From the NCBI RefSeq assembly GCF_963675165.1, contig NC_087379.1:6658839-6722838 (forward strand): a stretch of 64,000 nt of DNA, in the 5' to 3' direction. Below the pieces are notes generated by a model. That model was not told where the DNA came from, made no database searches, and saw nothing but the letters and a program-made list of their open reading frames with translations. Shown piece by piece: positions 17,514 to 61,266 of this stretch. Both the position numbers and the translations under genes were made by a program. This DNA is from Halichondria panicea (lineage: Eukaryota > Porifera > Demospongiae > Suberitida > Halichondriidae). Positions within the stretch are counted from its first letter, which is position 1. The number at the start of each line of letters is the position of its first letter.

Positions 17514-17548
<35 letters not shown>

Positions 17549-20214: not shown

Positions 20215-23188
20215 TTAGTACTTGTGCTGTTTCTTGGTGTTGAGGGAATAGTAACCAGACTTGATCCGACATGTGATGAATAGCCAGCTCAGGACAATCA
20301 CTAGTAGAGCCACAATTATTGCTGTGATCAGGAACGTTACTATAATCCCCACGGCAACGTAGGTACCATCCACATAGCCACTGGCTGTGGCACTTTGGGT
20401 ACTGCATAATGGAGGACCTGTGTATGTAGGAGAAATAAGGAGTAAATTATCATTAAGTGGTAAGTGACTTTAAAAGCTTCATCTGTCTTAGCTTGTTTAT
20501 TGCACATTGTAAATCTAACCAGTAGAATTCGATGACGGTGGGGTGATAGGTGGTGGACAGGTAGTAGGGGGCAGTGTAGGGGGCAGTGTAGGGCATGTAG
20601 GGCACGATACTTCAGTAGGTGGTGGGCAGGTTGGGGGAGGCGTTGTAGGAGGGCACGAGACTTCAGTAGGTGGTGGGCAGGTTGGGGGTGACGGTTCTGT
20701 CGTAGGGCACATGGGTGGAGTCATTATAGGGGGGCATGTAGGGCATGTGATCTCAGGAGGACAGGTAGTGGGGGCCATTGTAGGGGGGCATGTGATCTCA
20801 GGAGGACAGGTAGTGGGAGCCATTGTAGGGGGGCACGTGATCTCAGGAGGACAGGTAGTGGGGGCCATTGTAAGGGAGCATGTAGGGCATGTGATCTCAG
20901 GAGGACAGGTAGTGGGAGCCATTGTAGGGGGGCATGTGATCTCAGGAGGACAGGTAGTGGGGGCCATTGTAGGGGGGCACGTGATCTCAGGAGGACAGGT
21001 AGTGGGGGTCATTGTAGGGGGGGTCATTGTAGGGGGGCATGAGCTCCCTGGAATTGGAAAATACAGAATGCAGTGTGTGCATTCATTGCTGTCAATCAGA
21101 CTCACCTGTGTACTGTATCAGACTACTGTACAGTCCAGGGCCAATAGATGTCCTTGCTCGTACCTGAAGAATTTTAGATCTTACATATACGTATAATGGA
21201 TTGTAATGCTTACTGAAACTCGAATGTTACTGCCAAGATTTCTGATATTATCGTCAGTAACAACGTGATAGCTCTCAGATGGCAACTTGTTGACAGTGCG
21301 AGTTAAGGATCCAGAAAACCTTAACTGGTAGACAGTAATAACTCCATTAGGCTCAGCTGGGGGTCCCCACACAACAACTCCTGAGAATACCTGGACATCT
21401 CGTGGGACACTCGGAACTGCAAAGTCAGTCAGTTATTGTAAGTAAGCATACAATATAGTGTTTTGAGAAGAATCAAAAGATAAAGGTTTCCAAACTAATT
21501 CTCTTACCCCCCTCCCCTGTTCTGGTTGGAAGGTCTACTCTCCTTAGAGCTTCGTTCTCAGTATCTTGGTCGCTGACTCCATTGTGAGTGGTCACTCGTA
21601 TGGTGTAGGGTGTGTTGGGACGCAGGTTAGGGACTGTGTAGGAGACTGTGAGTACAGAATTGACATAGTTTCCATTGCTGAGTATGAACGACCCAGTGTT
21701 AGGATCACTGTACTCAATGGAGTAGTAGAAGTCATCTCTTCCGGTGACCTCAGGTCTGGTCCATAAGAGGCTAACACTAGTGGAAGTGATGGTGGTTGTA
21801 AGGAGGTTTCTTACTGGGCCAGGGGGAGCTGTATTGACAAGTGATGACATAATTATAATTATAATTATAGGTATTCCGAATTTGTATAGGTTCAACTTAC
21901 GTGTACAAGTCACTCCAGGTCCTTCATTAGTTTGCTCATCTCTGTAGAATCCATCCAGACAGCTGCAAATTGGAGCACCCTCCACATCCATTGCTGTGTT
22001 TATTGGACAATCTAGACAAGTGCCTTGGTCATCAGTTAGAGAGCGATAGGTTCCAGAAGGGCATTCTATTGTGGAAAATTGCATGCATGAAACAATACTC
22101 AATAGAATACCTTCACATCGATGTGTTCCATCTGCATTCACGATCAGTTTGTACCCAGCATCACAGTCACACCTTACGTTGCGCTCACATCTTTCATCAC
22201 CAGTAGTTCCATCAATGGCACTGAGAGCTCTGAAGGTGAGAGAGGTGGTGGGGTGAGAGTTGGGAGCACAGCAAGCCATGCCCTCGTTTGGTAGAGAGCC
22301 GCTGGGGGCACGAACAAGCTCAGGATAGTTGACCAGTCCATCTTGTCGTTCCTTACAAGGTGTGTAGTAGAAGAAGATTCGGTTAATTTGGCCACAATTT
22401 CCAGAGTCTCTGATGCCAAAATGGAATCCATTGGTTCTCGAGGAGAAGGGAGAAGTAATGGTAAGAGTTCTAGTGTCTGAAACAGTCCCACCACTCCCTG
22501 TCTGATCCAATCGAGATGTTGTCATATCTCCAAACAACGGAGTAGAGAGGTAATTGCTTCTGTCTGTTCGGTCACTCTCTGAGGCAATGCTGTTTGTGTC
22601 ATATCTGTATAGATCAGCAAAGTTATTCACACAGGCATCATTACACTGAGTGAATCTGAAGGAGACATCGAGATAGATCTCTGTTGGTAGACCCCCACCA
22701 AGGGTAGTACTTCCTGGGGGGTATTTGATGTGAGGGGAGAACACCCAGTTGTCTTGAGCTCCTAGTGTATAGGCACACACTCTCAAACCACGCTGACAGA
22801 TACCACCTCGATCCTCCCACTGATCAGCCACTGTCTGCAATGAAGGAAAGGATACTTAATTACATAAATATCGTCAAATTTGTCTCACCGGCACAGCTTC
22901 ATCATTGTCAAACTCTCTGCTGAGGAACACTGGCCCCACCAAGCTCTCGTAGTCATAAGAGTCAAACATCAGCTCCCACTCCGGGGGAAGAACGTGATCA
23001 GGTGAAAATCGGAAACTGGTGTGACATTGGTCAGTCGACGAGGTGATTAGTCGATCCTTTGGTGCACAGTTGTCAACACCCTGGCTGTTAATGCAGTAAC
23101 CATGGATAACTGGTGGTTGACATGTTGGAACCAGTGCAGACACTTGCACCACCAGAGCAGCAGCAACAGCAAGAATCCACAAATTCAT
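20215..23188 (-). CDS. Kinase-less Eph-like single-pass membrane protein
   Basis: Eight exons: 23188-22889, 22834-22111, 22065-21901, 21828-21508, 21416-21214, 21163-21106, 21047-20520, 20417-20215. They join in frame to about 833 residues. Order: signal peptide (1-19); ephrin-receptor ligand-binding domain (about 35-330; EWELMFDSYDYES, QDNWVFSPHI, FHFGIRDSGNCGQINRIFFY, CDCDAGYKL); GCC2/TNFR-like Cys module (CPSGTYRS...CSCLDGFYRDE); FN3 (TGRDDFYYSIEYSD); FN3 (PPAEPNGVI...VRARTS); about 176 residues of Thr/Pro/Cys repeats; transmembrane helix (about 787-813); tail CRIKSGYYSLNTKKQHKY. The ectodomain order equals that of vertebrate Eph receptors, but kinase and SAM domains are absent, and this is a true end (TAA after the tail). 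The tail holds a YYSL tyrosine-sorting-type motif. It may act as a ligand-binding adhesion protein or decoy; this is inferred. No damage was seen in any exon. Confidence 0.87.
20520..21047 (-). repeat. Thr/Pro/Cys (CPPT) repeat exon of the 23188-20215 gene
   Basis: Phase 1-1 exon of 528 bp coding for tandem units such as TMAPTTCPPEITCP and PPPTEVSCP. The DNA units are about 48-60 bp and nearly identical. It forms a stalk between the second FN3 and the membrane. The long open frame on the opposite strand (GGHVISGGQVVGA...) is its shadow. Confidence 0.85.
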
Positions 23189-24694
23189 CAGTTACTATTA
23201 CTGTATAGTATTACTGTAATAGAATCAGCTGATAATACTATAGTTCTATGCAAATCTTGTTTATTATACCAACAGTAACTTCATGCATGCACCAAGTCCA
23301 GTTGTTGTGGTTTAATTGAGGTGATTGGCTTCTTATATTACCTCAAGTTTCCTGTGTGGGTGTAGTAGCACACACTGTCAAATATGGCAGCAGATGAAAC
23401 CAGTTAACTTGCTGTCAGTTGGAACACAACACTTTGTTGATTCAATTGGCACTAATTTACAATTCCCTAATCCCGTCATTTAAGAACGGAGACATAGTTA
23501 CCACGAAGGGTAGATTTAATATAGCTCACCCATAAAAGTAATAGTTTTGAAGGAATAGTCTCTGGTAAGAATAGATTCTGCACAGTATTTCCTACAAAGT
23601 ATTTCCTTTTCCTCTTCATAGAAATGTCTAGTGCCAGAGGAGAAGTATGTTCTCATTCACACAATACACGTCCTATATAAGGTGCTAATGATTTGTCAAC
23701 ACTTGTACTATACATATAGGCATACTACTGTTATAACACATAACTAAGTAAACAGTCCTCCCACACAATGTACAACACTAAAAGTAATTTCAAGCTCTCG
23801 TTGATGTGTTGATGTTTGCACAAATAAAGGCCTTGAGCATTTCACAAGCTTCTGCAGTCCTTATATGGAGGTTTCAGAGTGTGCGTATGTGTGTGTGTGC
23901 AGGAGTCAAGAGTCTACCCACCATCCTACTTGAAGCTATACGAATTTCACCTGTATAGTACCTTAATTGGTTAGGTCCTATCAAACCACAACGCTTCACC
24001 ACATGTAAGAGAATGATTGATATGGTTTGACAAGACTTGCAGGTGCCAATAGCAGCACAGGAAATGGAAGTTTATATTGTGAGCTGGGATTCAGTGAAAC
24101 TATAATTATACCGTTAAGAGTTGTGGGGATTTACTAGGTCATTAAGCAAGTGCAGTCTATATAAAACAGGTGCAGTGATGCTAATGATAACTGTTTTCTG
24201 AAACATCAACCAAGAAAACTTTCAATTAAGTCCTAAGGTCACCATGAAGATTTGTATTATTAGGAGATCCGATTGATGATTACACAATGAGTCCATATCC
24301 ATTTGGACCCATGCACTACATTATGTTTACTTGGGTTTGAGTACAATGGGTAATGTAATTACAGTTGCCATAGCGAGCAGCCCAGTACATGCCACTAATG
24401 CAATTTCTCATTATCTACAGGACATTTACTGCATGGTCATGTATTCATAATTTGTCAATACACAGCTGAAGGTAAATGGCTCAATAAAGTAAGGCTTCAT
24501 GGATCATGTGGTATACCAGTAGCAAAACATTGAACAGTACACTAAGAGGTGAGAGTAACTTTGCATATAACTGCAAAACATTAGAAGACGGTACAAATTA
24601 GTGGTCATGGGGTGGTATAGCTATAGACTAGAAAAACACATACAAAATGTACAATCAATATAGTGGGTACGTACCAGCTTTGGCAGGTTCATGA
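23189..24694. other. Intergenic spacer, long type
   Basis: About 1.5 kb between two Eph-like genes with no open frame of interest. Much of it is homologous to 39846-41829: the GGCTTCTTATATTA block, a TGTGTGTATGTGTGTG run, the CTCGTTGATGTGTTGATG block and the ATTGTGAGCTGG(G/A)ATTCAGTG block. It probably holds the promoter of the 23188 gene. Confidence 0.6.
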
Positions 24695-27600
24695 TTAAGC
24701 TATAATGTTTGCACATATTCGGTGAAGGTTACCATCGTTGTTGGGCACAGTACAACAGTACAGTCCAGGGATTGCAGCTTGACCAGTGAATATCTTATTC
24801 TTATTGAGTCGAACCAGTTGAGAATCACGGTTGCGATACAATTCATTATTGAATGCTCTAATACTTAATTCAACACCGTGGGGATCGTAGCATTGTCCGA
24901 TCTTTTGCACTTTGCAGCAATCCTTAATTTCTGTTCGGAAGATGAGAGCTTCATCAGTTTCACCGATATCTTCGAGGGAGATACTACTGCCATTAGCGAA
25001 GGTTTCTCCTCTTAGCATGAACCCAATAGCATCTAAGACAGAAAAATAAGATGATTAAATCTCTAACAATATTTAACGAATACCACAATAAGCCATATAA
25101 ACATACCTTGTTGGCAAGTAGGTGCATTTCCACAACATTGCCCATTAGGTAAACAGGTTCTTCTTGAAGAGTCACTCAGAGTGTAACCAGGGTTACAGGT
25201 GTAGGTGGCCAGACTTCCTACAGCTATTGAAAGAGACAACACTCGCACTCCTCCATTAGCCGGATTGGAAAGTACAGGGCAGGTTACTGGAGGTGGTGCT
25301 TCACCTGTACGTACAGTGTGGAGGGTAACTAGGTCACCAAATGAAAGTATGGACTCTCATACCTGCTACGATGTTGACGTAAACACTTCTTGTCACTCCA
25401 CTTGCATCAGGGATGGCACATCTGTATCTACCCAGTGGAGAGGTCGCACCGTTCCTTCTGTTGAGACCAATAAACTGTTCTCCTCTGTTTCTGTATAAGG
25501 AATTTATGCTGGAGAAACCGACAGCTGTACCATCAGGATAGAAGAACTCTCCCTCATCAGGTGGGTCACAGCACTCAGTGTTGTCAGTCACACACAACAG
25601 AGCGTTATCTCCCTCTCCAATATCAGTGATCATCACAGTGTCTCCATCAGTGTAATTCTTTCCACGCAACATGAAATACACGTCACCTGTAATAGGTACG
25701 ATTAAAGCTACAAGCACAATGTGACATTCCTCACCTTGTTCTGGGGGACATGTTGTTGGGGGTGGTGGGCAGGTTGTGACTGGACAAGGAGTGGACGGTT
25801 CTGTTGGAGCGCACGTAGGTGGAGGTAGTGTAGGGGGGCATGTAGGGCACGTGGGTGGAGGCAGTGTAGGGGGGCACATAGGGCAGGAGACTTCAGTACA
25901 GGGGGTAGGTGGTGGACAGGCAGTAGAGGGAAGTGTAGGAGGGCAGGTTGGGGGAGGTAGTGTAGGGGGGCACGAGACTTCAGTAGGTGGTGGGCAGGTG
26001 GTTGTAGTTACAGTTGGACACATTATCACAGGAGGCATGGTTGATGCTTTAATTTGAATATGGAGTTCATAAACATAAAAACAATGACTATGATATACCT
26101 ATGTTGATGAAAATGCTTCTTGTCACTCCACTTACATCAGGGATGTCACATCTGTATCTACCCAGTGGAGAGGTGGCACCGTTCCTTCTGTTGAGACGAA
26201 TAAACTGTTCTCCTCTGTTCCTGTATAAGGAATTTGTCAGCGAGAAGCCGACAGCTGTACCATCAGGATAGAAGAACTCTCCATCGCCACCTCAGCGACA
26301 GCACTCAGTATTGTCAGTCACACACAACAGAGCGTTATCTTCCTCTCCAATATCAGTGATCAGCAATGTGTCTCCATCAGTGTATGTCCTCCCACTCAAC
26401 ATAAAATGCACATTATCTGTGGGCATAAATTCCACCCTAAAAATAATGCATCACTATATATAAGTCTAACCTAATGGGGTAGGTGTAGGGAAAGTTTGAC
26501 AAGGAGTGGACGGTTCTGTTGTGGGTGGAGGCAGCGTAGGGGGGCACATAGGGCACGAGACTTCAGTACAGGGGGTAGGTGATGGGCAGGTGGTAGGGGA
26601 CATTGTAGGGGGGCATGTAACCTCAGGACAGGGGGTAGCTGGTGTACAGTTTGGAGGGGGTACTGTAGGGGGGCATGTAGGGCACGAGGCTTCGGTACAA
26701 GTTGGGCAGGTGGTTGTAGTTACAGTTGGACAGTCAGTGGGTGTGGGGAGAGTTGGACACGTCATCACAGGAGGCATGGTTGATGCTGTGGAGATTGAAT
26801 AGATTTCATCATAAACAATGACTATGACATACCTATGTTGATGAAGATGCTTCTTGTCACTCCACTTGCATCAGGGATGGTACATCTGTATCTACCCAGT
26901 GGAGAGGTGGCACTGTTTCTTCTGTTGAGACCAATAACTTGTTCTCTTCTGTTCCTGTATATGGAGTTTGATGTGGAGAAGCCGACAGCTCTACCATCAG
27001 GATAGAAGAACTCTCCACGGCCACCTGTGCGGCAGCACTCAGTATTGTCAGTCACACACAACAGAGTGTTATCTTCCTCTCCAATATCAGTGATCAGCAA
27101 TGTGTCTCCATCAGTGTACATCCTCCCACTCAACATGAAATGCACATTATCTGTGGGCATAAATTCCACGCTAAAATAAAATTCACATTACTACGAGAAG
27201 TAAGTCTAACCTAACGTGGTGGGTGTAGTAGGGAAAGTTGGACAAGGAGTGGATGGTTCTGTCGTAGGGCATATAGGTGGAGTCATTGTAGGGGAGCATG
27301 TAGGGCATGTGATCTCAGGAGGACACGTAGTGGGGGCCATTGTAGGTTGAGTTCCTTGGAATTGGAAAGTACAGAAAGCACTATAATTATTCAGACTCAC
27401 CTGTGTACTGTATCAGACTACTGTATGTTCCAGGGCCAGCAGATGTCCTTGCTCGTACCTGAAAATTAAATTCTGCTAGACAGACATATAGAATTCTAGT
27501 GCTTACTAAAACTTGAATATTACTGCCGAGATTTCTGATATTATCGTCAGTAACAACGTGATAGCTCTCAGATGGCAACTTGTTGACAGTGCAAGTGAAG

Positions 27601-29841
27601 GATCCAGAAAACCTCAACTGGTAGCCAGTGATAACTCCATTAGGTTCAGCTGGGGGTCCCCACACAACAACTCCTGAGAATACTTGGACATCTCGTGGGA
27701 CACTTGGAACTGCAAGGTCACGTGAAAGCATATGTAACGATAAATACATTATTAAAAGCTTTCCAACTAGTAAGTAACGTTTCAATTACTTACCCCCCTC
27801 CTCTGTCCTGATTGGGAGGTCCACTCTCCTCAGAGCTTCATTCTCAGTGTCTTGGTCGCTGACTCCATTGTGAGTAGTCACTCGTATGGTGTATGGTGTG
27901 TTGGGATGCAGGTTAGGGACTGTGTAGGAGACTGTGAGTGCAGAATTGACATAGTTTCCATTGCTGAGTATAAACGACCCAGTGTTGTCAGGGTCACTGT
28001 ACACGATGAAGTAATATAAGCCATTTCCGGTAACCTCAGGTCTGGTCCATAAGAGAGTAACACTAGTTAAAGTGGTGGTTGTCACGCGGAGGTTTCTCAC
28101 AGGGTCGCTTAGAGGTGTGCAATCCAATGAAAGGTCCGGTGTGGGTCTCCGGAATCCATCCAAACACTGGCACATTGCAGCACCTTCCACATCCATTACA
28201 GTGTTCCTTGGGCAATCGAGACAAGCTTCATTAGAACTATATCTCCCAGCAGGGCACACTGTAAAAGATCATAAACTCAATTTAATTAGCCAGGCTTGTT
28301 ATTACCTACCTTCACATTCTGTTCTATCTTCATTGAATCCGTACCCAGCATCACACTCACACCTTACGTTGTGTTCGCATCTTCCATCACTGGCACTGTG
28401 AGCTCTGAAGGTGAGAGAGGTGGTGGGGTGAGAGTTGGGAGCACAGCAAGCCATGCCCTCGTTTGGTGGAGAGCCGCTGGGGGCACGAACAAGCTCAGGA
28501 TAGCTGACCAGTCCATCTTGTCGTTCCTTACAAGGTGTGTAGTAGAAGTAGATTCGGTTAATTTGGCCCCAATTTCCAGAGTCTCTGATGCCAAAATGGA
28601 ATCCATAGGTTCTCGAGGAGGGAGAAGCAATGGTAAGAGTTCTAGTCTCTGAAACAGTCCCACTGCTCCCTGTCTGATCCAATCGAGATGTTGTCATCTC
28701 TCCAAACAACGGAGTGGAGAGGTAATTGCTTCTGTCTGTTCTGTCACTCTCCGAGGCAATGCTGTTTGTGTCATATCTGTATAGATCAGCAAAGTTATTT
28801 ACACAGGCACCATTACACTGAGTGAATCTGAAGGAGACGTTGAAGTAACCACGCTGACAGATACCACCTCGATCCTCCCACTGATCAGCCACTGCCTGCA
28901 ATGAAGGAAGGGATATAATTAATTATTATACCGTATAGCGGGTAAGTTTCGTGGGGTAAAAAATTCGTTCAACTCGAGAAACGGCGGTTTTCGTGAGTAA
29001 AATTTTGGTTTAGTCTCATTGCCTGCACTGCATTCCTACGTTCCGGTAAGCCACGCCTACGTTAAAATTTCGTGGAGGTCAGCTTGCCCATGAAAATAAC
29101 GAATACTTACCCCACGAAAATTAGCTGCTATACAGTAGCGGGTAATTTTTTTTGTGGGGTAAAAATATTCCTTATTTTTGTGGTCAAGCTGCATGACCTA
29201 CACGCAAAATTTTCCTCCAAAAACGTAGGGGTGGCATACCGGAATGCGTAATGAAGCCAAACGAATTTTTACTGGCAAAATCACCGTATTCGAGTTAAAC
29301 GAATTTTTTTACGCCCTGAAAATTACCCGCTAAAACAAAATACTCGTTATTTTCGTGGGAAAGCTGACCTCCATAAAATTTTAACGTAGGCGTGGCTTAC
29401 CGGAACGTATGAATGCAGTGCAAGCAATGAAACTTAACGAAATTTTTACTCCTAAAAACCACTGTTTTCGAGTTGAACGAATTTTTACCCAACAAAAATT
29501 ACCCGCTATACGGTATATGGTACATAAATGTTTCTACATATTGTCTCACCAACACATCTCCATCATTGTCAAACTCTCTGCTGAGAAACACTGGCCCCAC
29601 TAAGCTCTCGTAGTCATAAGAGTCAAACATCAGCTCCCACTCTGGGGGAAGGATCAGGTGAAAATCGGAAACTGGTTCGACATTGGTCAGTTGACGAGGT
29701 GACCAATCGATCCTCTGGTGCACAGTTGTCAACACCCTGGCTAATGCAGTAACCATGGGGATCTGGTGATTGACATGTTGGAACCAGTGCAGACACTTGC
29801 ACCACCAGAGCAGCAGCAACAGCAAGAATCCACAAATTCAT
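24695..29841 (-). CDS. Eph-like secreted gene with Ig-like and Sushi modules, damaged
   Basis: Thirteen exons: 29841-29550, 28895-28310, 28258-27794, 27709-27507, 27458-27401, 27354-27211, 27150-26833, 26785-26471, 26416-26099, 26046-25735, 25686-25363, 25304-25107, 25032-24695. Order: signal peptide, Eph LBD, GCC2 and FN3 fused on one exon, FN3, then CPPT/Ig-like pairs three times, Sushi, and a final Ig-like module ending CANIIA and stop; no membrane segment. Compared with sister genes there are four lesions: a 5-bp loss in exon 1 (after FRFSPD) that breaks the frame; an in-frame loss of about 37 residues in the LBD (the QDNWVFSPHI region); Cys to Trp in DSGNWGQINR; and a TGA in the Ig-like exon at 26099-26416 (after ECCR). 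The last could be skipped because the exon is phase 1-1. Either a pseudogene in an early stage or a gene used through alternative starts and splicing. Confidence 0.68.
25735..26046 (-). repeat. CPPT repeat exon
   Basis: Phase 1-1 exon of 104 codons in the 29841-24695 gene, with units such as TLPPPTCP and PPPTPCTEVSCPMCP, between two Ig-like exons. Confidence 0.75.
26471..26785 (-). repeat. CPPT repeat exon
   Basis: Phase 1-1 exon of 105 codons in the same gene, a paralogue of 25735-26046 with the same first codons (ASTMPPVM). Confidence 0.75.
28931..29513. mobile_element. TIR element in intron 1 of the Eph-like gene
   Basis: Inverted ends CCGTATAGCGGGTAA and TTACCCGCTATACGG, flanked by TATA on both sides (28927-28930 and 29514-29517). 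The inside contains a second set of the same motifs (near 29120-29150 and 29320-29345), so it looks like a nested or dimeric MITE. Shorter relatives are at 42412-42560 and as fragments near 31865. Confidence 0.8.
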
Positions 29842-30149
29842 CACTATTATTTAGCTCAGCTAGATCTATTTATAGTTATATTCCTAATGCAAAATATGCC
29901 AGCTAGCTATAGTCTGATCACACCTATATACTAATAAAATGGGAATATATAGAGAATACAAGTTAATAGTCTACTGGCCCTGGCCTCAGGTATGTAAAGC
30001 CATGTGACAATGGGACTGTCCCTATAGATTAAGTACTAATGAAAACAATGGTTATACAAATTCACCATTGAGGTGATAAAATAATGAGACATGTAAACAA
30101 GGCAAAATATATAAAAATACTACTTTTCCTTAATCTACTCAGTTCAGTT
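29842..30149 (-). promoter_or_regulatory. Short spacer with conserved promoter-like block
   Basis: Only 308 bp separates the stop at 30150 from the next start at 29841. The block around GGTATGTAAAGCCATGTGAC and AATTCACCATTGAGGTGATA is repeated in the spacers at 48860-49190 and 60979-61266, so it is probably the shared promoter or 5'UTR of these genes. No TATA box is firmly identifiable. Confidence 0.5.
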
Positions 30150-48859: not shown

Positions 48860-49190
48860 TACTCTTATTTAGCTCAGCTACAATGCAAAAAATATGCCAG
48901 TTAGATTTAGCTAGATCTGTATCACTATGATCACACCTACTAATAAAAATAGGAAGAGAGATTTAGCTATAGATACAGGGATCATTTACTGGCCCTGGTA
49001 TAAATATTATAAAGCCATGTGACAATGGGACTGTCCCTAAGTAGATGTTTACCAAGAAATCTATAATGAAAACAATGGTTATACAAATTCACCATTGAGG
49101 TGATAAAAATATATAATGAGACATGTAGATAAACAAGCTAGGCAAAATTACTTACACTAATCTATTCAGTTCAGTTTCACAATACAATAT
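48860..49190 (-). promoter_or_regulatory. Short spacer with conserved promoter-like block
   Basis: About 330 bp upstream of the 48859 start, sharing the AAGCCATGTGACAATGGGAC and AATTCACCATTGAGGTGATA blocks with the spacers at 29842-30149 and 60979-61266. Confidence 0.5.
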
Positions 49191-51690
49191 TAACACACAC
49201 TTTGTCAGTTACTCAGTTTCCGTCTCTGAGCTGGGTATATCACAACGATAGAGTCCTGGCAGAGCTGCTTTCCCAGTATAGAGCTACTAGAGTAAGGCTG
49301 ACGATTCAATCGAATAACTTTATCTCCTCTGTTTCGATATATCTCATCTCCTGTGGCTCTCGCACACAAATTTTCAACTGATTGGAATTCCAATCCTCCT
49401 TGCTTGGCAACAATCAGCCCGAAATATTAATCCATTATCGTCTTCACCGATATCACTCAGTTGTACACTAGAGCCATTTGGTTCAAAGGTGAGTGGGGGA
49501 TGAACATTGGTCAGGGTTGATGCATTTCGATCGTGTCTCGTCTAAGACATTTCCCAGAGGACATGCAGGAGCATCCAGAGAGACAGAGAGGGCTATGCAG
49601 AATGGGGCGGGGTCTTTGCAGGTGGATGGACAAGCCGAGGCACACGTACTGAACACTTCACCTTCATTGTCACACGCAGGGGCTGCAGGAGGGGAGGGAG
49701 ATTAAACGATAAATGCACAACACTGAAATGACCCATTACATAAGTTAAATGTTATAATGATCAAATGCATACAAGACAAGATACAGTAGGTGCATAACTG
49801 ATAAGTGTTTGATGCTCAAATAGTAGTCATGCAGTTATAAAGTCCTGTGGTAGATTGGTATACAAACGAGAGGTGTATGTTAGCTGTATTGACTCTGTTA
49901 ATATTATAGTTGATGTACTAATTAACTCACGAATGAACGAATGAATCGGTTGTTGCCCAGTCCACTGATACACTGTCTCTGTGTTCTGCCGACCAGCTCG
50001 TAGGGTGCATCACACTCAAACACTGCCAGTGAGCCCAGCGTCACTCCAGTCACCTCCATCTTACCATTCTCAAAGCCATCCTCGAATGATTCACAATCCT
50101 TAACTGTAAGTATAAAACATTGCACAACAGGTAAATGTAAGTAAGCTAATAATGCTGGAGTTATGGCCACTTAGTTCCAAAACAGCTAGGGCTATTTCAG
50201 CAGAAAAACACCAACAAGATTTTGAACTTGGATGTAGCTACGCTAAAATGAAATGAAAAAATTAGGCTCGTAGACTCGAAAGTATAATCATTGATGGAGT
50301 GAGATTATGGTTTAGTCACACTGATGTATAACCAACCACATGCACGGTTAGATTGAATGCATGAAACAGTTCCACTCACTGCAGGTCGGCTCTCTCCCTG
50401 CCCAGCGTCCATTAGGTCTACACTCTCTGAAGTTAGAGCCAGATAGTGAGTAGCCAGGCATTGTTGCACATGTACAGGACAAAGGAACCATCATTCATGT
50501 ACTATAGCTCCATTCTCCGGTACTGAAAGCTTGTCACATGATACGCCTGTATGTATGTATGTAGGCAAGCAAGAGTCTTGTGGATCACCCTCGGCTCATA
50601 TACCAGCTTCACAACCTAAATGTTAAAAGTAGTTTGTGCAACCTTAACATCCTGTTCCAGCTGCATTCAGTCTGTACCCAGCATCACACTCACACCTTAC
50701 GTTGCGCTCACATCCTTCATCACCAGTAGTTCCATCAGTGGCACTGTGAACTCTGAAGGTGAGAGAGGTGGTGGGGTGAGAGTTGGGAGCACAGCAAGCC
50801 ATGCCCTCGTTTGGTGGAGAGCCGTTGGGAGGACGAACAAGCTCAGGATAGTTGACCAGTCCATCTTGTCCTTCCTTACAAGGTGTGTACATTCCGTTAA
50901 TATTGCCACAATTCTCCGGCAGAGTCTCTAATGCCAAAATGGAATCCATTGGTTTTCAAGGAGGAGTGAGAAGCAATGGCAAAATGTCTAGTCTCTAAAA
51001 TGAAGATAAAGATCGGAGTGGATTTTAAACATCACGTTTGATAACTGCTTTAAGGGAACCTACAGTGTACGTTATCCAATTGTATGCATGTATGTGCTCT
51101 TAAACTGTGGAATTTTGGGTATAATTTTGGGCAACTGTCTCGAGAATTTGGGAATAGAATTTTGGGGAGTTAGAAAAGCATAATGTGCTCCTTCCTGCTA
51201 CACACTCAGCTAAAGACGTACAAAGGAGCGTGACGTCTTCCAGGAAGCATGACTATGTCTGGCAAAAAAAATCGAAAGCGAGATTAGATCATGTATTGAA
51301 CGCAGTTCAATTTGGAGATTACACAGTCCATATTCATTTATATAGGGAGAATGAATTGACGTGCCAGAGTGTAGCCTGAGTTGCAGGTGTAGGTGGCCCT
51401 CGACCCAACAACCCCTGAAGAGCCGGACACTCTTCCATTAGCAGGATCGGAGAGTCGTTGATTAGGAATACATCATAATTATACTTGCATAGTCTCACCA
51501 CATGTTGATGCAGTTTCACTCCACGCTCCATTGGTCTGACAGGTTCGCCTTGAAGAGCCACTCACAGTGTAGCCAGTAAAACAGGTGTAGGTAGCTGTAC
51601 CTCCGCTAAGCGCTAGCAGACACTCTTCCATTGAGAAGAGGGAGGAGAGTGGAGCATTGTGGTGCTGGTATATGGGTAGCCTCGATCCTA
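49191..51690 (-). pseudogene. Scrambled remnant of Sushi, Eph and TIL/Ig-like exons
   Basis: Minus-strand pieces: Sushi (51680-51490) with a 1-base shift between GRVSAS and LSGGTATYTC; truncated Sushi (about 51450-51365, GRVSGSSG...SRATYTCNSGYTL); 3' part of an Eph LBD (about 50990-50640) with a deletion and frame break before CGNING; Sushi (about 50545-50385) lacking two bases after ENGAI; Sushi (about 50107-49925) broken after QRQCISG; TIL plus Ig-like (about 49690-49190) with several breaks. The last three match 62669-61267 of the gene at the right edge. An Eph fragment between Sushi exons does not match the order of any intact gene here. Confidence 0.8.
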
Positions 51691-53192
51691 GGCCGCATGG
51701 TATCGACTGCTTGCGCATGCGCTAACCATCCGCCGGTATCTGGCGGATCCGGATAACAACGTTTATGGTCAGTAAAACAGTGATGAAACAATGAACGGAA
51801 GTGGATTGAAGGAAGTAGATAGAAAGTTCGATTGAAGGTTTCTAGCCCATCTGATAGCATTCTAATAGTTACCTTTAGCCTGCCATGTTAACAAAAGACT
51901 CACAGCCAGCAACAGTGTGGATGACAATCGTCTGAACGAAGTAAAAGCTGACAAATAGCCTATGGACAGGCCACGCCCATCCAATACTAACTACTACTGC
52001 TACCGTGACTGACTCTATCAGACTGTCTCTAGCTATAGCTATAGCTCTAGCTCTGTGAATGACTTTCAATACTTTATCACAGATATTATTTTTCTCATAA
52101 TAAATACAAGGAAATTATACGGGAAAAATATTAAATAATTTGCGCATGCGCAAGCAGTCAGTAGCAGGCTTTCTCTTCAGGGGAGGCCAGTGAAGGAGGC
52201 TAGTATATGGGAGAAAGATGTAGTTGAGCTGTTACTTATTTTAGAATAACAAAATTAATGCAGAAATAATTTATTAGCCTGTATAGTATACGTGATTGTA
52301 GTAGAGTAAAGTATCAATTATCAGACAGAACGTATAATCAGACAGCTGCCGAATGAGAACGGATGTGCGAAACAAGCTGATATTTTTCACCCGACAATAG
52401 GCCTAGCCACAAAACCTCCAAAAATAATAGTCTAAATAAAAACGAGCAAAAGCAAAAGCTCAAACCTGCACGTTGGCCTAGATGTACACGCGGCTTTGAC
52501 TCGAGGCTGTAGACTCACTATATAACCTATAAACGCCAAGGGTTTGCATTTCAGTGCTCTAGTTAATAGCTTCTCAATAATCAAGAAAGGCCAGTTAAAA
52601 AAACTGTTACTGTCTGTAATTCCTTCCGGAAGACCAGCAAATATTGTTGATGAGACTCCCCTGTCTAAATATAAAATTTGCTACTAGATCTACTACAGTA
52701 AAGTATCGATTATCAGACAGAACGTATAATTAGACAGTTGCCGGATGAGAACGAATGGGCAAAACATGCAGATTTTCCCCCCGACCGATAATTACAAAAT
52801 GTGGTTGTGTCAGATAAATTGATTAATCAGACGAAATAAACGCTATAAGTCCCCTACAACATAAAATATTATCACAAAAGCTACATCTCTATCCTACGCA
52901 TGACAGCAGCAGTTACAAAACCACTAACATGTAGTTTTTTTGTTTTGTGGCATGTTGTAAGGGAGACTTTTAGCTACCAAATCACCTTAAACTTGTGGCT
53001 CTGCCTCTTCATTAATTCGTAGTGTCTGATATTACGTTATTTCATCAGACACGCCCACATGTTGGTACATAATTATAGCATGCTTATTTTAGAATCGACA
53101 TCGAAGCTTTAATCAAAATCTGCCAAATTTATAACTATACTATCTTATTGTGTTGAGGGTTGAGGCTATCCATGCATGGTATAAACACAGTG
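51691..53192. other. No gene; degraded repeats
   Basis: About 1.5 kb without coding features. GACTGCTTGCGCATGCGC near 51705 and its complement GCGCATGCGCAAGCAGTC near 52142 form a possible TIR pair. A 55-60 bp sequence beginning AGTAAAGTATC(A/G)ATTATCAGA occurs directly repeated at about 52304-52360 and 52699-52755. Confidence 0.5.
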
Positions 53193-56100
53193 CTATCGCA
53201 TCCAGTTGAGTAGACTCAGAATACACGGACAGACAGACTGACCGACTACTATAACCCGTGGCGCCGCGGTGCGTCTCGGGTTAATAATAATAGAAGCCAT
53301 GCATGCATGCATGCCAACATCACAACCACCTTGACAAGTTGGTGCATTTCCACTCCATATTCCAGATATTAGACAAAAACGTGTAGAGGAGCCAATCAGA
53401 TTATTGCCAGTGTTACATGTGTATATGGCTCTGCCCCCAGGGGCACCTGAAGTTATAGTCACAGTTCCATCCGATGGTTGAGATAGTTCAGGGCATAGTA
53501 CTGCATATGGTCGTTGTAGGTGCATATACATGGCAATCGATTTTGATTGATAGAACTCACCGCATGTTGGTGCAGTTTCACTCCACAATCCATTGGTCTG
53601 ACAGGTACGTGTAGAGGACCCACTCAGAGTGTAGCCAGTGTTACAGGTATAAGTAGCAATCCCATAGGAAGATCTTGAAGACACAAGCACCCTTCCATTT
53701 GTGGGACTAGTCAGACTAGGACACTCCCGAACCAGTACTGCAGCAATGGACAAATTAAAAGCATATCTAACAACACAAGAGCTGACTCAAACAACACTCC
53801 AAGATGAGTCTCCACTACACTCTATCACTATATAATTATATACCGTATATCACTAAAATGTTTTCCGAGCATCAAATATAATTGATTATGCAAACTTTGC
53901 GAGTGTTGATCAAATCACAACAACGCAAAACCTATGACACACGATCCTTGCTAGAGAACGCGATCGCAAAGGGTCAATTTAATGTTCTGCTGGTTTGGCT
54001 TATTATGCCTCAGTGTGCACGCGCAAGCGAGGTATACTGCATGTGTTTGTGTGTGTATGTAGACTGCTACAGTGTTTCACCTACACATTAAAGAACAGGG
54101 CGCCCCGCCCTGTTTGAGTAACTAATTGGATTTGAGAATCTGTGTTAAAGCTTAATTTAACTCGACACTCAGGAAGCTATTCACTTAATCTACTGAAAAG
54201 TTCACCACTGTTCCTAGCTGGCAGCTCTAGCTGTCTGCATGGGAGGCCTTTTTGAACTGCCTCTTTGATAAACTTATAGCTTTATGCTATGTAGCTTTAA
54301 CACCTCCACTGAGGCATCAGCACCCGCATTGCTTTCATTCGTAAACGAGTTTTTCACTTGCAAAGATTCTAGTAATATGATATATAATTATAGAGAGGAC
54401 AACAACAAATGCATATTTGATTGTAACTAACCTGTGAAACAGTTCAATGATGGCAACAGTAGGACTGTCCCTGGGAGTGCAGTAGGGTATGTAACCTTAG
54501 GACAGGGGGTACCTGGAGGACAGGTTGTGGGGGGAATTGTAGGGGGCATTGTAGGGGGGCAAGTTGGAGGTTCAGGACAAGACTTTCCTGGAATTGGAAA
54601 AACTGAAATGAAGTATGCATGTGCATGCACTCAATCAGACTCACCTGTGTACTGTATCGGACTACTGTACGGTCCAGAGCCAGCAGATGTACTTGCTCGT
54701 ACCTGAAATAATTGAAGAATAAATACGTATAACTATAATAATAGTATTGAATTGCTTACTAAAACTTGAATGGTGTTACTGCCAAGATTGATATTGTCTT
54801 CAGTAACAACGTGATGGCTCTCAGATGGCAACTTGTTGATAGTACGAGTGAAGGAACCAGAAAACCTCAACTGGTAGCCAGTGATAACTCCATTAGGCTC
54901 AGCTGGGGGTCCCCACACAACAACTCCTGAGAGTATTTGGACATCTCGTGGGACACTTGGAACTACAGAGTGATTCAGTTAAAACTGATGTTGTTTCATG
55001 TTCTAAATTTCCTACCTTTCTCCATCGTTTTGATGAACCGATAAGCTATCCTCAGAGCTTCATTCTCATTGTCTTGGTCGCTGACTCCATTGTGAGTGGT
55101 CACTCGTATGGTGTATGGTGTGTTGGGACGCAGGTTAGGGACTGTGTAGGAGACTGTGAGTGCAGAATTGACATAGTTTCCATTGCTGAGTATGAACAAC
55201 CGAAGCATGTCAGGATCAATGTACTCAATGGAGTAGTGGAAGTCATCTCTTCCAGTGACTTCAGGTCTGGTCCATGAGAGGCTAACACTAGTGGAAGTGA
55301 TGGTGGTTGTATGGAGGTTTCTTACAGGGCTAGGGGGAGCTATATATTGACAAGTGATGAAATGTAGGAATTAAATTTTTTAGGTTCAACTTACGTATAC
55401 AATCTACTTCCGGGCCTTCGTTAGTTTGCTCATCTCTAAAGAATCCATTTAGACAGCTGCAAATTGCAGCACCATCCATATCCGTTAATGTATTCATTGG
55501 GCAATTGAGACAAGCTCCTTGGTCATCAGTCAGAGAGCGAAACGTTCCAGCAGGGCAAACTGCAAAAATATAAACAATTATAAGCTATAAGGCCTGCTAT
55601 TACCTTGACATCCTGTTCCAGTTGCATTCAGTCTGTACCCAGCATCACACTCACACCTTACGTTGCGCTCACATCCTTCATCACCAGTAGTTCCATCAGT
55701 GGCACTGTGAGCTCTGAAGGTGAGAGAGGTGGTGGGGTGAGAGTTGGGAGCACAGCAAGCCATGCCCTCGTTTGGTAGAGAGCTGCTGGGGGGACGAACA
55801 AGCTCAGGATAGTTGGCCAGTCCATCTTGTCGTTCCTTACAAGGTGTGTAGTAGAAGTAGATTCGGTTAATTTGGCCACAATTTCCAGAGTCTCTGATGC
55901 CAAAATGGAATCCATTGGTTCTCAAAGAGGAGGGAGAAGTAATGGTAAGAGTTCTAGTATCTGAAACAGTTCCACTGCTCCCTGTCTGATCCAATCGAGA
56001 TGTTGTCATCTCTGTTCCTGTTCCAAGCAATGGAGTGGAGAGGTAATTGTTTCTCTCTGTTCGGACACTCTCTGAGGCAATGCTGTTGGTGTCATATCTA

Positions 56101-59100
56101 AATAGATCAGCAAAGTTATTCACACAGGCACCAACACACTGAGTGAATCTGAAGGAGACATCGAGATAGATCTCTGTTGGTAGACCCCCACCAAGGGTAG
56201 TACTCCCTGGGGGGTATTTGATGTGAGGGGAGAACACCCAGTTGTCTTGAGATCCCAATGTATGGGCACACACAAACAAACCACGCTGACAGATACCACC
56301 TCGATCCTCCCACTGATCAGCCTGCAATGAAGGAAAAGATAACTAATTAATATTGCTACATTTTGTCTCACCGATACATCTCCATCATTGTCAAACTCTC
56401 TGCTGAGGAACACTGGCCCCACCAAGCTCTCGTAGTCATAAGAGTCAAACATCAGCTCCCACTCTGGGGGAAAGATGTGATCCCTCATAAATCGGAAGCT
56501 GGTTCGACATTGGTCAGTGGACGAGGTGACCAATCGATCCTTTGGTGCACAGTTGTCAACACCCTGGCTAATGCAGTAACCATGGGGATCTGGTTGCATG
56601 ATTGTATTAAGCTACATACACATGAATCGAAGTATGAAAATCACTTACTTTCTACTACTGTTGGGCACGTTGTTGGGGATGGAGGGAAGGTTGTGACTGG
56701 ACAAGGAGTGGCCGGTTCTGTTGTAGGGCATGTGGGTGGAGGTAGTGTAGGGGGGCATGTAGGGCATGTGATATCAGGAGGACAGGTAGTGGGGGCCATT
56801 GTAGGGGAGCATGTAGGGCATGTGATCTCAGGAGGACACGTAGTGGGGGCCATTGTAGCTATAGGGGAGCATGTAGGGCATGTGATCTCAAGACAGGTAG
56901 TGGGGGCCATTGTAGGGGAGCATGTAGGACATGTGATCTCAGGAGGACAGGTAGTGGGGGCCATTGTAGCTATAGGGGAGCATGTAGGGCATGTGATCTC
57001 AGGAGGACACGTAGTGGGGGCCATTGTAGCCATAGGGGAGCATGTAGGGCATGTGATCTCAGGAGGACACGTAGTGGGGGCCATTGTAGGGGGGCATGTA
57101 GGGCATGTGATCTCAGGACAGGTAGTGGGGGCCATTGTAGGGGAGCATGTAGGGCATGTGATCTCAGGAGGACATGTAGTGGGGGCCATTGTAGGGGGGC
57201 ATGTAATCTCAGGAGGACACGTAGTGGGGGCCATTGTAGGGGGGCATGTAGGACATGTGATCTCAGGAGGACATGTAGTGGGGGCCATTGTAGGGGGGCA
57301 TGTGATCTCAGGAGGACACGTAGTGGGGGCCATTGTAGGGGAGCATGTAGGGCATGTGATCTCAGGAGGACATGTAGTGGGGGCCATTGTAGAAGGGCAT
57401 GGCGTGGGTAAGAGGTCACCTGGAATTAATTGGAAGCATAAAGTACGAGCATATATTTACATGTACATGGGACTCACCTGTGTACTGTATTGGACTACTG
57501 TACGGTCCATACCCAGTAGATGTACTTGCTCGTACCTGCATGAGAATACTGCCAGTACAATATATAATATATCAGTATAGAATGCAATGTCTAGGATTGG
57601 CTAGGGGAAACACCAAAAAGCGTGGAAACAAGAAATCTGGCCAATGCCGCATGTATAGGTCCATCTACCCCACCACTTCATGCATGCATACTTATTGGAT
57701 GAACTGTGCCATTGTATTATGTCATAAATGGTGCAATCTGCATGATATGGATTGGTTACTGAGATGTCCCTTATTACACTTAGAGAGACCTCAGCATATA
57801 GGTATTCTACGGAGGGGTCCATTATAATGTACTTGCTTATATGTTGAAATCATAGTAACGATGATGCAGTGCATATAGGTCTCGGCCAGTATTGAAGGCA
57901 CACCCATAAGGCGTCCAATTAGGTATGCATAAACTGCATTTATTTTTAGTCTTCGCATTCTGCAGCATGGGCGTAACTACATCAATGAGGCAGAGGAGGC
58001 CCTTGCAATTGCCTCCTGAACTATTGAACTTCAAGTGTCATATGACTCACCTCACTAGCTTTTAATAGCTCTGGTTAGCTAACTTCTGGATAACTATCTA
58101 ACTAGAATGAGCAGAAAATGAGCTCTATCACTGTCTTGTTGATGAAGAAAAGAGAAGAAGAGCAAGTAAATAGCAGTTTACTGCCATTTGCATGCACTTC
58201 TACACGATAATTAGTGGGTGTGGTTTCCGGTTAAACATTTTGCGGGGTCTTGCACAAGCGCTCTTGTTGCCTCCTTCCCGTAAAATTTCTAGTTACGCCC
58301 CTGTGTAGTGCAGCTTGACAACTTTTATTTTACTCCTGTATTAAACTACTAAGTATAGAGAATAGCAACTTTCTATTAGCAGTTTTTTTCCTATATGCAT
58401 GATTCTCAACGCAAGAGACGGAAACGGCCCTCAATGTGAGTTTTTTATATGTTGACTAGCGAGAGCAAAGCTTTAACGCTGCTTGAGGCTTGTAAAAACT
58501 AATAGCCTAGCTTGCTTTTTTATAGCACCAACGATCACACATAATCTCATGGAGACCCAAGTTAGTCTTCCATTCTTCTTTACAATGTTGAACTCAGCCT
58601 ATAACTAGAAACATCATCACAATGACCTCCCCTGTGTAGGGAATTACATCACCTACCATTATTCATTGCTACGCGTTGTCAGCCAGAGCAATAAGCACAT
58701 TACAAACAAGGAGTGTGGTTAAACGATAGTGAGTCCGCAGTACTGTGCATAGTAAGACGCTTCATCTCCTCATGTGCTCCTGGTTATACCAAAGGCGTAT
58801 AAAACACCAAAATTCAAAGCGTGTGCAAATGAAAGGAATGTGCATGAAAAAATAACCACTTCAAACGTCTTTATGCATCCGCTCACGCTTTTAATTTTGG
58901 CTGCTACGTGCCTACTAGATAGTTTTTTCATGCACCCTTGATTATATTACATTATAATTATAGCCAGTTTTCAGATGTGGAGCTGCAGAGTATGAACATG
59001 AGTCAAAATAAATATTGCTATAACACCTGGCCAATCTAAATTTCTTACTTGAATATTACTGGTGAGATTTCTGATATTATCGTCAGTAACAACGTGGTAG

Positions 59101-60978
59101 CTCTCAGATGGCAACTTGTTTACAGTGCGATTGAAGGATCCAGAAAACCTCAACTGGTAGCCAGTAATAACTCCATTAGGCTCAGCTGGGGGTCCCCACA
59201 CAACAACTCCTGAGAATACTTGAACATCTTGTGGGACACTTGGAACTGCAAAGTCATTTAGTTAATAGAAGCAGTATTCCATAGTTCTGAACTGCTTACT
59301 TCCTTCTAATGTCCTGATTGGAAGGTCCACTCTCCTCAGAGCTTCATTTTCAGTGTCTTGGTCGCTGACTCCATTGTGAGTGGTCACTCGTATGGTGTAT
59401 GGTGTGTTGGGACGCAGGTTAGGGACTGTGTAGGAGACTGTGAGTGTGGAATTGACATAGTTTCCATTGCTGAGTATGAACGATCCAGTGTTAGGATCAC
59501 TGTACTCAATGGAGTAGTAGAAGTCATCTCTTCCAGTGACCGCAGGTCTGGTCCATGAGAGGCTAACACTATTGTTAGTGATGGTGGTTGTACGGAGGTT
59601 TCTTACAGAGCCAGGGGGAGCTGTATTGACAAGTAATGACATCTAGGTACTCTAAATGTTTACGTTAAACTTACACGTGCAATTCACTCCAGGGCCTTCA
59701 TTAGTTTCCTCATCTCTAAAGAATCCATTTAGACAGCTGCAAATTGCAGCACCGTCCACATCCATTGCTGTGTTCATTGGACAATCTAGACAAGTGCGTT
59801 GGTCATCATTCAGAGAGCGATAGGTTCCAGCAGAGCAAACTGTAAAAAGTTAAAGGAAACATTATTATATAAACTCAATTAATTTGCTAAGGCCTGTCAT
59901 TACCTTCACAACCTGTTCCAGTTGCATTCAGTCTGTACCCAGCATCACACTCACACCTTACGTTGCGCTCACATCCTTCATCACCAGTAGTTCCATCAGT
60001 GGCACTGTGAGCTCTGAAGGTAAGAGAGGTGGTAGGGTGAGAGTTGGGAGCACAGCAAGCCATGCCCTCGTTTGGTGGAGAGCCGCTGGGGGCACGAACA
60101 AGCTCAGGATAGTTGACCAGTCCATCTTGTCGTTCCTTACAAGGTGTGTAGTAGAAGTAGATTCGGTTAATTTGGCCACAATTTCCAGAGTCTCTGATGC
60201 CAAAATGGAATCCATTGGTTCTCGAGGAGGAGGGAGAAGTAATGTAAAGAGTTCTGGTCTCTAAAACAGTCCCACTGCGACCTGTCTGATCCAATCGAGA
60301 TGTTGTCATCTCTGTTCCTGTTCCAAACAACGAAGTGAGGTAATTGTTTCTGTCTGTTCGGACACTCTCTGAGGCAATGCTGTTTGTGTCATATCTGTAT
60401 AGATCTGAAAAGTTATTCACACAGAGACTATTACACTGAGTGAATCTGAAGGAGACATCGAGATAGATCTCTGTTGGTAGACCCCCACCAAGGGTAGTAC
60501 TTCCTGGGGGGTATTTGATGTGAGGGGAGAACAACCAGTTGTCTTGAGCTCCCAATGTATAGGCACACACTCTCAAACCACGCTGACAGATACCACCTCG
60601 ATCCTCCCACTGATTAGCCACTGTCTGCAATGAAGGAAAGGATACTTAATTACATAAATATCGTCAAATTTGTCTCACCGGCACAGCTTCATCATTGTCA
60701 AACTCTCTGCTGAGGAACACTGGTCCCACCAAGCTCTCGTAGTCATAAGAGTCAAACAACAGCTCCCACTCTGGGGGAAGAACGTGATCAGGTGAAAATC
60801 GGAAACTGGTTCGACATTGGTCAGTCAACGAGGTGATTCGTCGATCCTCTGGTGCACAGTTGTCAACACCCTGGCTAATGCAGTAACCATGGGGATCTGA
60901 TGGTTGACATGTTGGAACCAGTGCAGACACTTGAACCACCAGAGCAGCAGAAACAGCAAGAATCCACAAATAATTCAT
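53193..60978 (-). CDS. Secreted protein with two Eph ectodomains and Sushi modules
   Basis: Exons: 60978-60679, 60624-59904, 59839-59675, 59620-59300, 59245-59049, 57535-57478 (module 1: signal peptide MNYLWILAV, LBD, GCC2, FN3, FN3); 57419-56649 (257-residue CPPT stalk); 56589-56372, 56321-55604, 55559-55395, 55339-55016, 54962-54760, 54702-54645 (module 2, no signal peptide, begins NPHGYC); 54587-54432 (52-residue CPPT); 53737-53561 and 53500-53330 (Sushi, CPSLTSPTNGRV and CPELSQPSDGTV). Frame is kept across all junctions with no stops. The 3' end is uncertain: the last donor reads gtggtt, which is weak; reading on gives a stop at 53193 and about 1619 residues. Otherwise it would splice toward the decayed exons at 51.7-49.2 kb. 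No membrane helix seen. Intron 5 is long (57536-59048) and holds an inserted element. Confidence 0.78.
56649..57419 (-). repeat. Largest CPPT repeat exon
   Basis: 771 bp in one phase 1-1 exon. About 13 units of TMAPTTCPPEITCP, some with an added TCSP or IA, in near-identical DNA units of about 48-60 bp. It joins Eph module 1 to module 2. The 405-codon open frame on the plus strand is its complement. Confidence 0.88.
57966..58303. mobile_element. GGGCGTAACTA-ended TIR element
   Basis: Ends CATGGGCGTAACTA and TAGTTACGCCCCTG, 338 bp, inside intron 5 of the two-module gene. A second shared motif (GCCTCCT / AGGAGGC-like) lies just inside. No coding capacity. Confidence 0.55.
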
Positions 60979-61266
60979 TATCTTATTTAGCTCAGCTATT
61001 ATATTCCCAATGCAAAATATGCCAGCTATGCTTTAGATCACACCTACTAATAAAAATGGGAAGAGAGATCTAGATACAAGTTAATACTGGCCCTGGCCTC
61101 AGGTATGTAAAGCCATGTGACAATGGGACTGTCCCAAGTAGACTACCGTGCAAGTAATGAAAACAATGGTTATACAAATTCACCATTGAGGTGATAAAAT
61201 AATGAGACATGTAAACAAGGCAAAAATACAAAAATACTACTTTTCCTTAATCTACTCAGTTCAGTT
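60979..61266 (-). promoter_or_regulatory. Short spacer with conserved promoter-like block
   Basis: 288 bp from the stop at 61267 to the start at 60978. Nearly identical over most of its length to 29842-30149, including CACACCTA..ACTAATAAAA and CTGGCCCTGGCCTCAGGTAT. Confidence 0.5.

Follow-up and report, generated by a model that had tools for sequence, protein, structure and literature searches.

Tandem genes for putative kinase-free Eph-ectodomain proteins in the sponge Halichondria panicea

A stretch of 64,000 nucleotides from the sponge Halichondria panicea (the window; C3:6658839-6722838 on contig NC_087379.1, within a 131 Mb genome of 39 contigs) was found to carry a row of genes whose predicted proteins repeat the extracellular half of an Eph receptor. 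The interpretation favoured here, with moderate confidence, is that these genes form a tandem family whose products are extracellular Eph-ectodomain proteins lacking a kinase and would act by binding outside the cell, in adhesion or recognition. The array region occupies 20.2-61 kb on the minus strand and comprises five gene copies (A-E) with eight Eph ligand-binding domain (LBD) modules and two LBD relics. A preliminary description of this DNA had counted four genes in a row plus relics; the tandem array and the relics were recovered, and the number of copies was raised to five by splice modelling. The gene map was obtained by tblastn with seeds derived from the window, followed by a search for splice sites, and the models are drawn from DNA rather than RNA. 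The features of the array are the following.

20215..23188, minus strand: gene E, signal peptide-LBD-GCC2-FN3-FN3-Pro/Thr/Cys stalk-membrane helix-17-residue tail
20554..21039, minus strand: stalk exon of gene E, with repeats of type TCPPEITCPPTMAPT
24695..29841, minus strand: gene D, signal peptide-LBD-GCC2-FN3-FN3-immunoglobulin-like (Ig-like)-stalk-Ig-like-stalk-Ig-like-sushi-Ig-like, with the conserved terminal stop
30150..39845, minus strand: gene C, signal peptide-[LBD-GCC2-FN3-FN3-stalk]x2-LBD-GCC2-FN3-FN3-FN3-Ig-like-stalk-sushi-Ig-like, then a stop
39552-39845/38784-39501, 37281-37498/36475-37225 and 34827-35041/34047-34752, minus strand: the LBD exon pairs of gene C
41827..44251, minus strand: relic module with LBD fragments (44.25-43.6 kb), GCC2-like pieces, FN3, FN3 and a partial Ig-like exon
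44836..48859, minus strand: gene B, signal peptide-LBD-GCC2-FN3-FN3-stalk-Ig-like
49374..60978, minus strand: gene A, signal peptide-[LBD-GCC2-FN3-FN3-stalk]x2-sushi-sushi
50641..51001, minus strand: LBD relic with one internal stop, within the degenerate C-terminal part of gene A
61267..64000, minus strand: 3' part of a further gene (gene 0), sushi repeats-TIL-Ig-like, with its stop at 61267

The domains were identified as Eph-like by several searches. Spliced gene C gave three Ephrin_lbd matches in Pfam (83.6 bits against a cut-off of 27, E=2.4e-23), together with five of fn3 (228.8 bits, E=5.7e-69), three of Ephrin_rec_like (47.7 bits, E=1.3e-12) and one of Sushi (E=3.5e-9). The gene E model scored 58.8 bits for fn3 (one stretch) and 32.5 for Ephrin_rec_like; its Ephrin_lbd score was 25.7 bits over the whole protein, just below the cut-off of 27, and 27.2 in a 460-amino acid open reading frame (ORF) with its LBD exon. 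Ten ORFs of the window yielded Ephrin_lbd at 34.1 and 27.2 bits (cut-off 27) plus fn3, Sushi and TIL, and single GCC2 exons reached 22.9 and 22.7 bits for Ephrin_rec_like, just below the cut-off of 23.1. A profile built from nine LBD exons, of which three lie in the window and six at other loci, matched 37 PDB sequences at E<=0.01, all of them named Eph or ephrin receptors, the best being EphA4 (1.6e-29). The order LBD-GCC2-FN3-FN3 recurs along the minus strand in both the Pfam results and the tblastn map, and the full Eph ectodomain order read in the preliminary description is thereby upheld. The relation of the array LBDs to the Eph LBD appears clear but distant, since a single window LBD searched alone against PDB reached only E=1.2e-4 (EphA2); the disulphide cysteines of the LBD are, by eye, kept in the array copies.

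Two of the models are complete open frames. Gene C was modelled as 24 exons encoding 2,316 residues in a single frame without internal stops and with three LBD modules; 21 of its 23 junctions were resolved automatically and the remaining two were placed by hand. Among the junctions resolved automatically, introns between domains are all of phase 1, and those that interrupt the LBD or the second FN3 are of phase 0. The least certain join is that from the FN3 at 32884 to the Ig-like exon at 31668, and the final FN3 in module 3 appears incomplete. Gene E was modelled as eight exons encoding 833 amino acids, with no internal stops and a stop codon at 20217-20215. Stalks resembling that of gene E occur at 45885-46118, 56662-57375, 37544-37747, 35092-35295 and 30972-31262. 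Genes A (18 of 19 splice junctions resolved) and C have two and three modules, respectively, joined through phase-1 introns, and no signal-peptide exon was found for the later modules of either gene. Modules 2 and 3 of gene C probably belong to the same gene, because the stalk exons end in donors to which phase-1 acceptors correspond and because a signal-peptide exon is absent there. No signal-peptide exon was found for the relic module at 41827..44251 either. The array extends past the window through gene 0, whose LBD lies at L003:1469-2233 (C3:6.725 Mb), with GCC2 and FN3 exons read there by eye; the exon order suggests that these pieces form one gene.

No kinase and no SAM domain was detected by Pfam in the spliced models of genes C and E. 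One complete Eph gene was found in the genome, and its exons, which were scanned individually and not as a spliced protein, served as queries for the missing half.

C3:6307300-6317299 (L018), minus strand: complete Eph, with LBD, cysteine-rich region, FN3, juxtamembrane segment, kinase exons and SAM

In this gene Ephrin_lbd scored 62.9 bits, the EphA2_TM juxtamembrane family 35.3 and SAM_1 51.5, with PK_Tyr_Ser-Thr above its cut-off in four exons; GCC2 (17.2) and fn3 (21.8) were below the Pfam cut-offs, and the exon of the second FN3 and helix was assigned to no family. When its six kinase and SAM exons were searched by tblastn against the window and the other 23 of the 24 loci, the best E-value was 0.13; the SAM exon matched only itself among the window and the 24 loci. 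The claim that no kinase or SAM follows the array genes is thus confirmed, and that of Eph-like binding proteins without a kinase is supported, the domain models having scored the LBD of gene C three times. A genome search with the LBD of the complete Eph returned 31 matches, namely itself, two pieces of one relic, one window relic and 27 modules. These 27 LBD modules without a kinase, among which the truncated gene D and a stop-bearing copy (P4, below) are included, stand against one complete Eph. Outside the arrays and L003 there are eleven kinase-free LBDs, for which about 8 kb of downstream DNA was covered in nine cases and 3-4 kb in two (L015b and L023b); runs of N limit the kinase search in L019 (84) and L020 (918). 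The absence of a kinase downstream of the 27 modules is strongly suggested by these searches.

Two other kinase searches were set aside. A regular-expression search gave no match anywhere, yet it also missed the kinase of the complete Eph, which is split over small exons, and it was replaced. A kinase family search scored 129 of 1749 candidates and was not used as evidence of absence. Among the candidates it scored, a run of tyrosine kinase matches, many with internal stops, was seen at C4:2.5-2.76 Mb (L026), and tandem tyrosine kinase matches, mostly stop-free, at C10:1.70-1.94 Mb and C15:4.00-4.03 Mb.

The array copies could also be alternative extracellular cassettes joined by splicing to a kinase exon far away. 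In favour of this, gene E is followed about 0.36 Mb downstream, on the same contig and strand, by the complete Eph; against it, that gene contains an LBD of its own and what by eye is a separate signal exon. The question was approached through the DNA: with 46 of 46 candidates scored, the juxtamembrane/kinase exon of Eph hit, apart from its own locus, only two other kinases, both weakly (E=5e-5 and 7e-5), and it occurs once in the genome, inside this Eph gene. The array genes moreover have C-terminal stops that are present and conserved, with no such kinase exon nearby, and the cassette explanation is considered extremely improbable.

The ends of the array genes point to secreted or surface-displayed products. 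The last Ig-like domain runs straight into the stop in genes B, D, P2 and P5, with the same ending (ANIIA-stop), and nearly so in P3 and P4; a second form, VCVNIVL-stop, is common to gene C and gene 0. The stop falls within a few codons of the Ig-like domain in eight of the nine ends examined, the ninth, that of gene A, being truncated. A hydropathy scan showed the signal peptide as the only hydrophobic stretch in genes C and D, and the product of gene C looks secreted, since it has a signal peptide and no membrane helix. Gene E has a strong membrane helix in the same scan and is the sole window gene ending in a helix and short tail; its helix exon (20215-20417) has a single genome match, which is itself, and none to the complete Eph. 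An Eph-type membrane helix followed by a tyrosine-bearing juxtamembrane segment was not found in the array genes, and genes B-D stop after extracellular domains. The preliminary description had the genes ending in a short tail or a secreted stop; the tail holds for gene E, whereas the other genes do not stop after FN3 and run on into stalk, Ig-like or sushi exons that the description had not listed.

A second group of LBD genes was found beyond the window.

C3:6.782-6.835 Mb, plus strand: P1-P6, six related LBD genes, about 60 kb past the window end

Genes P2-P6 have one LBD module followed by an Ig-like domain, many sushi repeats and a terminal Ig-like domain, the Ig-like domain of P6 coming after the first sushi repeats; the sushi repeats number 11 to 21 per gene in P2-P5, as counted from the tblastn map. 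A stop interrupts the LBD of P4, and P1 appears truncated. Other subfamilies are found at L003 (two LBD genes) and L023 (a pair). A divergent LBD gene at L003:3917-9825 is not one of the 26 hits that the genome search with Pfam gave; several GCC2-like repeats can be read in it by eye, as can a membrane helix and a short tail, and Pfam detected no GCC2 in the one exon scanned.

The two arrays differ in divergence from exon to exon. Median dS (synonymous divergence) between them is 0.10-0.23 for the LBD, GCC2 and terminal Ig-like exons and 1.1-2.6 for the FN3 and first Ig-like exons, as obtained from subsets of six to nine copies per exon, the FN3 values above 1 being near saturation. The LBD of gene E groups with that of P1 (98/92). 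This pattern would fit exon-restricted conversion or recent exon transfer.

Within the arrays the LBD is variable. The median ratio of nonsynonymous to synonymous divergence (dN/dS, or omega) was 0.65 over 78 pairs of 13 array LBD exons, from which gene D and the relics were left out and in which one stop-bearing copy was kept with its stop codon skipped, compared with 0.34 over 36 pairs of nine Eph-like LBDs (including the complete Eph and excluding L022). Divergence peaks at residues 85-128, where the nonsynonymous proportion (pN) is 0.143 vs 0.049 outside and omega 0.96 vs 0.56 outside (P4 left out in both). By alignment to EphA4, which is gap-rich there, these residues cover the J-K loop, whose limits in EphA4 are given as Ala150-Leu166 (PMC2832735). 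A further pN comparison for the J-K region gave 0.138 against 0.054. Shifting the segment along the domain gave 10 of 256 positions for residues 95-128 (13 copies) and 1 of 256 for residues 85-128 without P4; the control is post hoc, the J-K segment having been picked after seeing where the variation lies. The nine Eph-like LBDs showed no clear excess in the J-K region (43 of 221 shifts). Parts of the LBD core are constrained: windows that begin at residues 25-37 and 131-155 have omega of about 0.2-0.4.

This constraint bears on whether the array is mostly made up of decaying, functionless duplicates. Damage is present: gene D is a broken copy (a frameshift in exon 1, about 45 amino acids missing from exon 2 and a stop inside the second Ig-like domain; all but 3 of its 13 splice junctions were resolved), in gene B the reading frame shifts late in the Ig-like exon and meets a stop near 45516, the exons of gene A downstream of 53.3 kb (sushi, TIL and truncated Ig-like) look degenerate, and to these may be added the stop in the P4 LBD, the truncated appearance of P1 and the two LBD relics. 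Downstream of its frameshift gene B is still open (sushi at 45257-45439; Ig-like at 44839-45174 with the conserved stop). However, the frames of genes C (24 exons) and E (8 exons) are open throughout, the stop position and splice sites are conserved, and the low omega in parts of the LBD core also speaks against decay. An array consisting mostly of debris is regarded as improbable.

The body to which the Eph-type head is attached belongs to a widespread class. The Ig-like domain has at least 116 matches in the genome at E<=0.001 (150 of 199 candidates scored), with at least 86 on C4 and at least 23 in the C3 arrays by hand count, those on C4 spanning a multi-megabase stretch of about 0.09-3.8 Mb. 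In the part of C4 examined (L025), Ig-like, sushi and FN3-like exons stand side by side by eye, and no Eph LBD match was found on C4 in the genome LBD searches. The terminal Ig-like domain itself had no Pfam match and a best E-value of 0.81 in a PDB sequence search. Its structure model (mean pLDDT 76.2) provides a weak hint, the best fold matches being NCAM Ig domains (E=2.5e-3, TM about 0.42-0.45), with none at E<=0.001. The array proteins may therefore be seen as Eph heads placed on an Ig-sushi-FN3 body that is locally widespread.

An alternative is immune-type recognition, in which the products would be opsonin-like or pattern-binding proteins whose LBD and sushi/Ig parts bind microbes or non-self cells, not ephrins. 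The tandem arrays, the variable sushi number in P2-P5, the Ig-like and FN3 domains in common with the large C4 family (86 of the 116 Ig-like matches listed), the low LBD identity with the complete Eph (28%), and LBD exons that are alike between arrays and have a variable region would all be in keeping with it. The Eph LBD is a galactose-binding-like fold (PMC6485061). Retention of the Eph LBD cysteines and core tells against this explanation, which is held to be a serious but rather doubtful alternative.

Kinase-free LBD genes also occur singly in the genome.

L014:6857-7402, L016:6854-7387 and seven other loci: dispersed kinase-free membrane copies

In eight of these loci the LBD exon is 80-91% identical to that of the complete Eph, and in the ninth (L022) 46%; all nine continue into a hydrophobic helix, a tail of 42-177 residues and a stop. 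Six of the nine loci (five of the eight near-copies) have NPxY motifs in their tails, 15 in all against a mean of 0.28 and a maximum of 3 in 2000 shuffles; since the NPSY units repeat in tandem and the copies are related, the test overstates their independence. Two tails end in YESIRDYEVVYDVI plus one residue, fitting YxxI-x6-YxxI, a motif match with a spacing like that of an immunoreceptor tyrosine-based activation motif (ITAM).

The kinase-free LBDs could act as a decoy or buffer, with secreted LBDs competing for the ligand of the complete Eph and limiting forward signalling in the manner of engineered soluble Eph ectodomains. The ratio of 27 kinase-free modules to one complete Eph agrees with such a role, as do the eight membrane copies with 80-91% LBD identity and short tails, five of eight with NPxY, as in ligand-clearing receptors. 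The window LBDs, however, are only about 30% identical to the complete Eph, which makes a shared ligand less likely for them than for the dispersed copies, and the ephrin search found no candidate. A decoy or buffer function as the main explanation is judged unlikely.

Under the favoured interpretation, that of binding proteins working outside the cell, an Eph-type head (LBD-GCC2-FN3-FN3 with phase-1 introns at its borders) is joined to stalk, Ig-like and sushi modules and, in two gene models, repeated two or three times per gene, which would give a multivalent protein. The conserved stop after the last Ig-like domain, or the membrane helix in one copy, would leave the product secreted or displayed at the surface, where it would work by binding and not by catalysis. 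The LBD, with the J-K region most variable among copies, would bind an ephrin-like or other surface ligand. Either cells or matrix would then be bridged, as multivalent adhesion or recognition, or the ligand would be occupied before it reaches the single complete Eph, as a decoy. The preliminary description had put forward adhesion, recognition or decoy functions, and any of these uses is inferential; given the multivalency and an Ig/sushi body that recurs in the very large C4 family, a role in adhesion or recognition is favoured over one purely as a decoy.

Several points weigh against this interpretation. It is built on DNA sequence, and the expression and ligand binding of the array proteins are putative. 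The array LBDs have about 30% identity (28% in one comparison) to that of the genome's own complete Eph, so that ephrin binding cannot be assumed. Of the check for canonical Eph and ephrins that had been proposed, the first half succeeded with the one complete Eph; the ephrin search of the genome (PF00812) gave no candidate, a weak negative. A structure model of the LBD, built from seven near-identical rows, had a mean pLDDT of 37.6 and was discarded. Omega in the J-K region is about 0.9-1.0 and not above 1, and relaxed constraint fits as well as diversifying selection; other LBD windows (at the start, at residue 167 and beyond 191) have omega of 0.75 or more, the values of at least 1 near residues 191-240 arising because pS is near zero there. 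The fusion of modules in genes A and C is argued from splice-site logic alone, and gene A, with one marginal hydrophobic stretch in its second stalk exon (1.75 in the hydropathy scan), may not be secreted. Finally, damage affects two of the five copies and the end of a third has degenerated, so that part of the array may be dying.

A broader proposal, offered tentatively and thought less likely to be right than wrong by a wide measure, is that the Eph LBD has been turned into a stand-alone recognition system in this sponge. Beside one complete Eph, it would comprise secreted and partly multi-headed Eph-Ig-sushi arrays, with LBD and terminal exons homogenised by exon-restricted conversion and a variable J-K loop, and dispersed membrane receptors in which NPxY or ITAM-like tails replace the kinase, the two together serving self/non-self or cell-type recognition.

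Compared with Eph receptor tyrosine kinases (vertebrate EphA/EphB and the complete Eph L018), the array genes share the order of LBD, cysteine-rich/GCC2 region and FN3, the LBD disulphide cysteines (by eye) and, in gene C, Ephrin_lbd and Ephrin_rec_like scores above the cut-offs. They differ in the lack of the juxtamembrane-kinase-SAM half, in having up to three LBD modules per modelled protein, in the added stalk, sushi, TIL and Ig-like domains, and in a membrane helix confined to gene E. Related Ig-like and FN3 domains and sushi repeats are likewise shared with the C4 genes (L025), for which the genome LBD searches gave no Eph LBD match. Kinase-lacking splice isoforms of vertebrate Ephs (PMC6993872) resemble the array in having an Eph ectodomain without a kinase, whereas the array consists of separate genes with their own terminal domains. 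Kinase-free Eph-LBD proteins have been reported from sponges, cnidarians and ctenophores (Krishnan et al., 2019; PMC6485061), and the family, held to be unusual in the preliminary description, is indeed present here but has kinase-free sponge counterparts already in print. That report gives 100 LBD proteins in sponges, 15 of them full length, with kinase-less architectures for which an adhesion role was suggested, and many kinase-free LBD proteins were treated as partial gene models. The likeness lies in an LBD without a kinase; a tandem array, multi-LBD fusion, a sushi/Ig mosaic and the one-kinase-to-many ratio are not described there, supplements aside. With the same proviso, no earlier description of secreted multi-LBD mosaics or tandem LBD arrays was found in the literature searched.

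Two neighbouring features of the window were noted by eye. A long open frame at 17398-19974 (plus strand), which adjoins the end of gene E, appears sorting nexin-like (SNX25-like), and frames with an RHGDRTP motif at 14828-16146 (minus strand) resemble a histidine acid phosphatase.

In the usual account, Eph-ephrin signalling is a receptor kinase system that goes back to the first animals. Kinase-free and partly multi-headed secreted Eph ectodomains that outnumber one kinase-bearing Eph would suggest that the binding half followed a separate path in adhesion or recognition. The array also suggests that some sponge LBD proteins listed as fragments may be complete proteins.

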